Shown: in pieces, positions 61,550 through 64,000 of the stretch
Layout of the letters: every line of letters starts with the position of its first letter
Position numbering within the stretch: position 1 is the stretch's first letter
Assembly (NCBI GenBank): GCA_019638475.1
Contig: JAHBTR010000003.1
Span: 62,001 to 126,000 of the forward strand
Source of the DNA: Chitinophagaceae bacterium
Lineage (GTDB): Bacteria; Bacteroidota; Bacteroidia; Chitinophagales; Chitinophagaceae
Direction: 5' to 3'
Length of the DNA: 64,000 nucleotides
The notes under the pieces: generated by a model
Seen by the model: the letters and a program-made list of their open reading frames with translations, nothing else
What the model was told of the DNA's origin: nothing
The model's database searches: none
Translations under genes and position numbers: made by a program

Positions 61550-63131
61550 TCACTCAACCACCAACTTTTGTGTTTGTGTATTGCCTTCGGTATTTGTAAC
61601 CTTTACAAAATAGATACCTTTTGATAAAGTAGCAATATTTAATTGTACAAAAGTTAAATCATCATAATTTTTGTTCAATAATCTTCTTCCTGTTAAATCT
61701 ATTATACTTACTTCTTTTATGTTTGAATATTGAATGTTTAGTACATCTTTTGCAGGATTAGGATAAATTGACAATTGAGTATTGAAAGTTGAATATTGAA
61801 TATTTTCTATTTTACTATAAGTAATTTTTCCATCTTTATCTACCGCCTCTATTCTATAATAGCTCCTTCCATTCAAAGGCTGTACATCTGTAATGCTGTA
61901 TTCATTGTAGCTTTCGTTTTTTGCATTTACTTTATTGATAGCATAAAAATCAGTTCCGTTACCACTTCTTTGTACATTAAAGTAAGATACATTTATTTCA
62001 TTAGCTGTTTGCCATTGTAAAGAAACATTTTTGTTTTGTAATGTGGCTGTAAAATTGGTATAGATTAATGGAACGGCAGAGTTGGTGTATTTAGCTACAT
62101 AACGATTACCATTTGAGTTCGTAAAATGTCCTGCGGCATAAATGTTTCCTACGGCATCACTACATATAGAACTAATTTGAGCATTTGCCTCTAAACTATT
62201 TTCCCCACCTAATTCGCTCCATGTGCTACCATTGAATTTTGCCACATATTGCTTGCCGTTTGCATTTGTAAAGCGTCCTGCGGCATAAATGTTTCCTGCT
62301 GCATCAGTACAAATAGAAGTAATGCCATCATTTGCTTGCAAACTATTTGTCCCACCTAATTCACTCCATGTGCTGCCATTAAATTTTGCTACATAGCGTT
62401 TACCATTTCCGTTGGTAAAATTTCCAGCGACATATATATTTCCTGACATATCACTACAAAAACTCCAAATATAACTATTAGCTTGTAAGCTATTTGTACC
62501 GCCTAATTCACTCCATACACTACCATTAAATTTTGCTACATAATAATTACTGTTTGCATTTGTAAACTCTCCCCCTGCATAAATATTTCCTGCTATATCG
62601 CTGTAAAGAGCAAAAATATACCAGTTTGCCTGCAAACTGTTTGTACCACCCAATTCATTCCATGCTGTTCCGTTAAATTTAACTACATAATGCAAGTTGG
62701 TCAATACCGTTGCATAAATGTTTCCCGCAGCATCGCTACACAACTCAGCAATAACACTATTCATTACAAAACTATTTGTACCGCCTAATTCACTCCATGT
62801 ACTACCGTTAAATTTGGCTACATAAAATCTAAAATTTGAATTTGTAAAAAATCCTGCGGTATAAATATTTCCTGTTGCATCACTGCAAAGAGCATAAATA
62901 GTATTATTAGCTTGTAAACTATTTGCCCCCCCCCAATTCACCCCATGTAGTTCCATTGAATTTTGCTACATAACGTTTGCCATTTGCATTGGTAAAATTT
63001 CCAGCAGTATAAATATTCCCCAATGCATCTTTACAGATAGAATTAATATAATTATTAGCTTGCAAACTATTTACTCCTCCCAATTCACTCCATTGGGCAT
63101 TTGTTGCAGTAAAGGCAGAAAGAAAAACCAA
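61550..63131 (-). pseudogene. T9SS-sorted seven-repeat propeller protein, frameshifted at a G9 tract
   Basis: The frame encodes seven repeats of about 41 residues, each with SELGGxNSLQAN, SICSDAxGNIYAAGxFTNxNGKxYVAKFNGSTW, then a fibronectin-like linker and a T9SS type A sorting domain (LSIYPNPAKDVLN to NTQTQKLVVE). A run of nine G (62925-62933 on the complement) puts the first repeat out of frame; eight G would restore ELGGANSLQAN. The first coding part, with the hydrophobic signal TIYAILLVFLSAF ending TNAQW, lies in the other frame and has no ATG; the sequence in front of it is a GC-rich repeat, so its 5' end may have been lost. It is either a pseudogene or a phase-variable surface protein. 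Confidence 0.75.
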
Positions 63132-63139
63132 TAATATAG

Positions 63140-63400
63140 CGTATATCGTTTGGCGGCTTGGCGTAGTGGCGGATTTTTAGCACAAAAGCTCAATCGAAGA
63201 ACTGCACTTGAACCTACCACAAAACTATCATACGAAGCACTGCACCCGCCATTACGCCAAACCGCTGTTAGCTGCTGCCCTTCTGTCTTTCGTCCTGATT
63301 GTCTGTCGGTTGTGAGGTGGGACAGACACACTCTTTGCCAAGTTTTGGTTTGAGCGTTGGCTTGTGCGACTTGGCAATGTGTGTGGCTGTGAAGCGTTAG
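63140..63400. repeat. GC-rich structured repeat resembling an integron attC site
   Basis: The stretch is clearly more GC-rich than its surroundings. It holds an imperfect inverted pair CGGCTTGGCGTAGTGGCGG (63154-63172) and CCGCCATTACGCCAAACCG (63246-63264), matching at 17 of 19 positions, followed by CTGTTAGCTGCTG; further right TTGCCAAGT and ACTTGGCAA form a perfect 9-bp stem (about 63336-63378), followed by AAGCGTTAGCA. The two GTTAGC units at the right end of paired arms recall attC recombination sites, but the classical GTTRRRY/RYYYAAC boxes are not exact. It lies between the propeller gene and a TIR gene. Confidence 0.45.
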
Positions 63401-63415
63401 CATACTGTCTCTTTT

Positions 63416-64000
63416 TTAGTTTAATACTCTGTCTGATATTTCTTTTGCGATTTCTTCAATTGTAAAACTTGATGTATTCAATGCCAACATATCAGCTATT
63501 ATTGGGCTGAATTTTAAAACTTCGTTTTTACTGATTTTATGCCAAATTGGAAGTATTACTTTTTCTCCGTTTACTTCTCTTGCAAAAAGTCCATCCAATT
63601 CTCTTTGTGGCCATTCTTTGCTAAAAAATGCTTCTGATAAAACTACTATTCCGTAACGTGAATTTTTAAGTCCGTTGTCAATGGAACGTCTAAGACTATC
63701 GCCAACTCTCAACGTAAATTCATCATACCAAACTTTAAGTCCGTGTTGCTGTAAACACTTTACAAAATCTCTAACAAAGTCTTCCTTGTCTTCGGATGCG
63801 TGAGAAACGAAAACATCGTAAGCGACTTCTTGATTTTTTTCAGAATTAAATAAAATGCTTTCAGAATGATATTGGGTATGATGTAGTATGCTTAATTGTT
63901 CCCCACAATAGTTCATTACCTTAACCGTGTTTATAGAATAAAAAACATACAATTCTATTAGCCTTGATAAAGAAACAGTACCATCAAGCATAAAAGGGAA
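63416..64000 (-). CDS. TIR-domain protein (possibly partial at the window edge)
   Basis: The frame remains open to the last base of the window, with an ATG at 63991, so the true start may lie outside. The C-terminal two thirds (about residues 57-185 from that ATG) form a TIR domain: YDVFVSHASEDKEDFV, GLKVWYDEF, GDSLRRSIDNGL and GIVVLSEAFFSKEWPQREL, where the glutamate of WPQREL is at the catalytic position for NAD+ cleavage. The first 50 residues have no recognised domain. TIR proteins in bacteria often act in anti-phage defence by degrading NAD+ or in making signals, but a partner gene is not seen because the window ends here. Confidence 0.85.
   Translation of the reverse strand, partial: FPFMLDGTVSLSRLIELYVFYSINTVKVMNYCGEQLSILHHTQYHSESILFNSEKNQEVAYDVFVSHASEDKEDFVRDFVKCLQQHGLKVWYDEFTLRVGDSLRRSIDNGLKNSRYGIVVLSEAFFSKEWPQRELDGLFAREVNGEKVILPIWHKISKNEVLKFSPIIADMLALNTSSFTIEEIAKEISDRVLN

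Follow-up and report, generated by a model that had tools for sequence, protein, structure and literature searches.

What is the GC-rich, palindromic block that lies between a TIR-domain protein gene and a propeller-type gene without its 5′ end, and did it bring the TIR gene to this position? The block lies in a window of 64,000 nucleotides (G000:C6:62001-126000; C5, C6, C7, and C8 are contigs of the source genome). An initial annotation of the window inferred a cassette-like or mobile origin for the TIR gene from a layout resembling integron recombination sites. It proposed searching for copies, looking for an integrase, and folding the structures, and it held that scattered intergenic repeats without flanking variable genes would rule out a cassette role. 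The relevant features are as follows, all on the minus strand where a strand is given.

61550–63146, minus strand: target gene, encoding a secreted repeat/propeller-type protein; its 5′ end is parted from the start codon by the cassette, and it carries a frameshift.
63146/63147, minus strand: right junction, cassette ...CCAAACG / ATATACGC... propeller gene, from reading of the flanks.
63147–63275, minus strand: attC-like recombination site of the inserted cassette, by homology to about 45 array sites, a 9/9 end match, and its circle-form fold.
63319–63394, minus strand: H2 element of END type, a hairpin that follows the TIR stop codon and precedes the attC-like site, with invariant CACATT/AAAGAG.
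63416–64000, continuing to window-equivalent 64603, minus strand: TIR-domain protein gene, the second cassette gene, 395 aa (Pfam TIR_2, E 4e-21; PADLOC PDC-S66, E 4e-75).
C6:130401–130477 (window-equivalent 68401–68477), beyond the window: H2 element of START type, partner of the END copy in the window.
Window-equivalent 68546/68547, minus strand, beyond the window: left junction, ATGAAAAAG / TTAGCTGC, from reading of the flanks.

The GC content of positions 63075–63449 is 0.43 to 0.53, compared with about 0.30 to 0.37 in both flanks, and both of the inverted structures described earlier are present. The arms of the first are GGCGG.C.TTGGCGTAGTGGCGG and CCGCCATTACGCCAA.A.CCGCTGTTAGC, while those of the second (63322–63390) are 86% complementary. 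As inserted in the window, the two hairpins fold with only a modest gain over shuffled sequences (z −1.84 and −2.03, respectively). However, when the first hairpin is rebuilt as it would be in a circular cassette, z drops to −4.7 and none of 200 shuffles is as stable. On the minus strand the site reads R″ GCAGCTAAC (63275–63267), inner stems, a loop of approximately 70 nucleotides, and a G at 63147 that is the last cassette base. No known RNA family matched the site. The likeness to integron sites is borne out for the first hairpin, which is attC-like, but the second is a different element, H2. The two hairpins do not bracket the TIR gene as flanking sites; the cassette has two genes and is closed by a single attC-like site.

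The insert is a two-gene anti-phage cassette of 5.4 kb that extends beyond the window end and encodes a type IIG restriction-methylase and the TIR protein. The TIR gene belongs to this insert, only part of which the initial annotation had in view; its frame runs past the window end, where it is preceded by a 1237-aa Eco57I-type methylase (PADLOC type IIG restriction enzyme-methyltransferase, E 5e-272). On the minus strand, the order is ...ATGAAAAAG, then TTAGCTGCAACCCTAAAGAACAGACGACAG ... methylase, TIR, H2, GCAGCTAAC-hairpin-CCAAACG, then ATATACGCTATATTATTGG..., and the insert ends GTTAGCTGC and GCAGCTAAC are complementary at all nine bases. The propeller gene is split between ATGAAAAAG and ATATACGC, that is, between codon 3 (AAG) and codon 4 (ATA). 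Rejoining of the flanks (ATGAAAAAGATATACGC / ATGAAAAAGATATACGCTATATTATTGG) restores the in-frame signal-peptide start of a secreted propeller-type protein. The earlier suggestion that the 5′ end of this gene had been cut was thus correct, and its start codon now lies 5.4 kb away at the far end of the insert. The breakpoint is certain to one base, a G common to both sides, an uncertainty that is expected of a G|TT crossover. Cassette anatomy and insertion junction are direct observations. A search of the genus gave no natural empty target site; the empty state is inferred from the sequences on both sides. A frameshift at a C run near 62926–62936 (two overlapping open reading frames, 62919–62957) also breaks the propeller gene and could reflect real decay or a homopolymer sequencing error.

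The insertion target, G|ATAT, agrees with GWTMW, the rule for integron-integrase secondary sites (PMC4618277). The locus resembles attG, or secondary-site, cassette insertion (Loot et al. 2024, cited in PMC11023631) in this target fit and in that a lone cassette sits at a non-integron locus where only one att site remains. It differs in belonging to a non-IntI system and in carrying a two-gene, 5.4-kb defence cassette.

If the site belongs to a cassette, relatives are expected beside other variable genes. About 25 DNA-level relatives were found within the source genome, mostly on one strand of C8, and a covariance model of the site gave 54 matches, a few of which represent the same palindromes read on the opposite strand. 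About 45 sites form one co-oriented, defence-rich array of at least 100 kb on C7 and C8, which spans C8 from 1 to 95 kb, where every site has the same strand, and extends over the initial ~11 kb of C7. C8 holds 42 sites, and 77 of the 81 open reading frames between them are on the same strand. C7 begins inside a site, from which we infer that the two contigs, unjoined in the assembly, adjoin there. The genes carried by the array encode, among others, MzaC/D/E, three type I restriction-modification sets, a HindIII-family nuclease, AbiU, PDC-S26, DpdF/GajB-like helicases, type III restriction-modification, reverse transcriptase, HNH, GIY-YIG, and NYN-LOTUS proteins; ordinary enzymes are also present. 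The second cassette from attI (C7:7069–10104) has genes for a reverse transcriptase and for a BT4734/primase-like protein, which appear to form a defence-type RT pair.

A few lone, decayed copies of the site exist elsewhere in the genome, as would be expected if the sites were scattered intergenic palindromes of REP or MITE type that merely happen to lie between accessory genes. We considered the lone sites as fresh secondary insertions, but they are mostly decayed, and a matching cassette end is kept only at C5:81219–82377. A weak H2 copy accompanies one decayed lone site outside the array (C5:437013–437290), and the pair may be what is left of an earlier insertion of a large cassette.

The dispersed-repeat explanation can be separated from a cassette by the ends: the two ends of one cassette are expected to agree with each other more closely than with the ends of other cassettes. 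In the C8 array, 31 of 36 neighbouring pairs match at all six variable positions beside GTT/AAC, compared with a mean of 1.9 and a maximum of 8 in 20,000 shuffles. The same holds for arrays of other members of the order (57/63; shuffle mean 2.7, maximum 10) and for further genomes of the phylum (31/40; shuffle mean 1.6, maximum 8). In total, 16 arrays or array segments gave 139 neighbouring pairs, of which 119 match exactly, and one cassette in the C8 array with GTA in place of GTT has TAC at its opposite end. This co-inheritance of complementary ends is observed directly and indicates, as far as sequences can, that cassette ends travel with their cassette, as in integrons. Such cassette-specific ends, a one-way array, and shared attI breakpoints (see below) are not expected of dispersed repeats. 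The neighbour-complementarity test refutes the REP/MITE explanation, and we give it next to no credence; the outcome that the initial annotation would have taken as ruling out a cassette was not met.

Moreover, positions 12 to 14 past the 9-bp box co-vary (0.79–0.97 vs 0.29–0.42 in shuffled pairs; 0/2000). This covariation across a 2- to 3-nt mismatch suggests that the folded circle has an additional outer stem. We know of no such outer stem in canonical attC sites. For 30 of 35 sites, folding prediction favours the circle form over the array form (mean −6.5 kcal/mol), and 11 of the 18 stem pairs of the site show compensatory changes. The boxes had been called noncanonical, and this holds: in R boxes such as GTTATAGGC, GTTAGCTGC, and GTTGTAGGC, only GTTR is near-constant, and the attC consensus RYYYAAC/GTTRRRY is not fulfilled by these sites. 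In the bottom-strand orientation, AACG is nearly constant (C and G are invariant in A1) and the stem co-varies; a C.A mismatch is frequent in the stem and a constant bulge is absent.

Which enzyme would act on these sites? Beside the array lies a gene for a 356-aa tyrosine recombinase, here called BctInt (C7:11362–12432), one of only three found in the source genome; the other two are Xer-type. This recombinase is not a canonical integron integrase. Its best NCBIfam matches, NF040815 (201.7 bits, cut-off 220) and TIGR02249 (191 bits), both fall short, the latter of a curated cut-off of 265 bits, and no canonical IntI above cut-off was found in the source genome. The catalytic residues R214, K239, H303, R306, H329, and Y338 are invariant in A2. 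The additional domain near patch III that is a defining trait of IntI (PMC9668308), and that IntI activity is reported to need, is missing: VchIntI has 64 residues in this region and BctInt 21, i.e., about 43 fewer. The domain is likewise absent from all BctInt homologues with an aligned C-terminal region.

BctInt aligns to archaeal XerA without a large gap. It resembles XerA-type recombinases (NF040815; PDB 4a8e, 5hxy) in this ungapped catalytic domain and in having the same catalytic residues and tyrosine, but differs in its link to hairpin-site cassette arrays and in its N-terminal domain. Its SPLD C-terminus is common to IntI and not to the XerC/D-type enzymes of the source genome. The AlphaFold model (pLDDT 81.5, pTM 0.52) has VchIntI and XerA as best structural matches and an extra N-terminal domain. 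This domain of ~80 aa (C7:11362–11600) is common to BctInt homologues, with conserved H15 and W43-S44, has no Pfam match, and is predicted to be arranged as strand-strand-helix-strand-strand-helix; it is possibly a DNA-binding arm domain. One tree placed IntI and BctInt together and the Xer-type enzymes of the source genome apart (99/97); these Xer enzymes are just two long branches in it, and we give the tree no weight.

In four genomes, the 9-mer partner of the first site lies upstream of the recombinase, at a distance of about 190 to 220 bp, and a conserved TC...ATACGCAA stretch comes next. In three metagenome-assembled genomes (L038, L039, and L049), this putative attI region is identical over about 190 bp; the sequences then part exactly at (T)AAC, each running on into a different first cassette. 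This breakpoint, itself a direct observation, is the strongest comparative evidence for what appears to be insertion at attI. In some relatives (L051/L078; G109:C3), the array is instead downstream of the recombinase gene and co-directional with it, not divergent.

Two further explanations concern the recombinase. Housekeeping XerC/XerD might move the cassettes, as in dif/pdif modules, with BctInt nearby by chance. The Xer-like sequence of BctInt (its NF040815 score) and the two other Xer-type recombinases in the genome are compatible with this idea. Sites of the dif type are 28 bp, however, and those described here are hairpins of ~124 nt with loops of ~70 to 80 nt; in addition, they track BctInt across genomes, within a few kb of it, and attI is in the region upstream of BctInt. 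We regard this explanation as very improbable.

The other is that of an ordinary integron, in which a canonical IntI acts on merely divergent attC sites. The same cassette logic, an attI by the recombinase, the AACG bottom-strand signature, and secondary-site insertion would all fit, and canonical IntI is present in 105 of 395 genomes of the phylum. The distribution of the sites speaks against it. Of the 149 genomes from the order, 98 carry them, as do 171 of 395 (43%) from the phylum. Their presence is associated with BctInt (odds ratio 11.9, p 3e-23), but not with canonical IntI (odds ratio 0.5); the p value overstates independence, because the genomes are related. Among the listed sites (capped per genome and at the best 150), 41 of 100 in BctInt genomes are within 30 kb of BctInt, compared with 0 of 17 within 30 kb of IntI in genomes with canonical IntI; in genomes with both enzymes, no listed site is near IntI. 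The association with BctInt is thus observed, as are the failure of any IntI to reach the cut-off in the source genome and the lack of the IntI insert in the adjacent recombinase. Accordingly, the ordinary-integron explanation is largely refuted and very unlikely to hold. The 79 genomes that have sites and no BctInt match at the cut-off used suggest that cassette clusters can stand alone or use a more distant recombinase.

We therefore return to the attC-like reading, to which we assign a probability of roughly 0.9: positions 63147–63275 are the attC-like site of a mobile gene cassette of a Bacteroidota integron-like system. This reading rests on sequence comparison alone; recombination and present mobility are inferred. 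The mobile origin proposed for the TIR gene is supported by end complementarity, the base-level junction, the large array, and the adjacent recombinase.

The H2 element marks the large cassettes. On C8 it is found in all seven cassettes of at least 5 kb and in none of the 34 smaller ones; in other genomes it is in five of six cassettes of at least 4 kb and in 2 of 56 smaller ones. By a strict pattern or a covariance model, it lies near both ends in five of the seven large C8 cassettes, in the window cassette, and in the C7 type III cassette, while in the two other large C8 cassettes the END copy alone is clear. The covariance model finds 15 strong copies in the source genome, all within large cassettes, and one weaker copy by another lone site. 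An intrinsic-terminator scan found no terminator-like hairpin at H2; the element may serve in termination or insulation, or as a second signal for recombination or protection.

In the mechanism that we propose, cassettes would be kept in a long one-way array beside attI and BctInt. In an excised circular cassette, the ends GTTNNNNNN and NNNNNNAAC would pair, so that one strand of the site could fold into a long hairpin; such single-strand folding in vivo is inferred. BctInt would recombine the folded site with a GTT-type attI position through a G|TT crossover and may occasionally use a chromosomal position outside attI. In the window, the type IIG restriction-methylase and TIR cassette would have been put into the secondary site G|ATAT by the same route. 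The system would thus work like an integron, with the same logic, but with a recombinase that is not IntI and a noncanonical R box; catalysis by BctInt and mobility today are inferred.

Like sedentary chromosomal integrons (e.g., Vibrio superintegrons), it has a large one-way array, palindromic sites with AAC...GTT ends, an attI by a divergently transcribed recombinase (in its own genome), a G|TT crossover, and complementary cassette ends. Unlike them, it has a recombinase without the IntI-specific domain and with ~80 additional N-terminal aa, an R stem of 9 bp plus a co-varying 3- to 4-bp block across a 2- to 3-nt mismatch instead of heptamer boxes, R boxes outside GTTRRRY, and multi-gene operon cassettes of 5 to 9 kb with H2 hairpins at their ends. 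We lean, only slightly, toward a separate Bacteroidota integron lineage, sister to IntI integrons or independently evolved, whose recombinase lacks the additional domain and acts on hairpin attC sites, and whose cassettes can be whole defence operons bracketed by H2; H2 would then provide a further signal for recombination, protection, or insulation.

Published descriptions treat integrons as rare in Bacteroidota. With IntegronFinder 2.0, a complete integron is reported for Salinibacter ruber (Bacteroidetes), where previously only In0 was detected, and Bacteroidota are not among the 11 taxa of the published attC models. We found no description of a system such as this one in open-access full text (subscription papers and preprints were not covered). 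Bacteroidota appear to have a widespread integron-like gene-capture system. If this is true, sites in 43% of the sampled genomes of the phylum would represent a major unrecognised gene-capture platform loaded with anti-phage systems, overlooked by surveys in which the IntI domain and canonical attC are prerequisites. The need for the IntI additional domain in recombining folded single-stranded sites would now be directly testable, and the cassette boundaries would offer a handle for mining defence operons.
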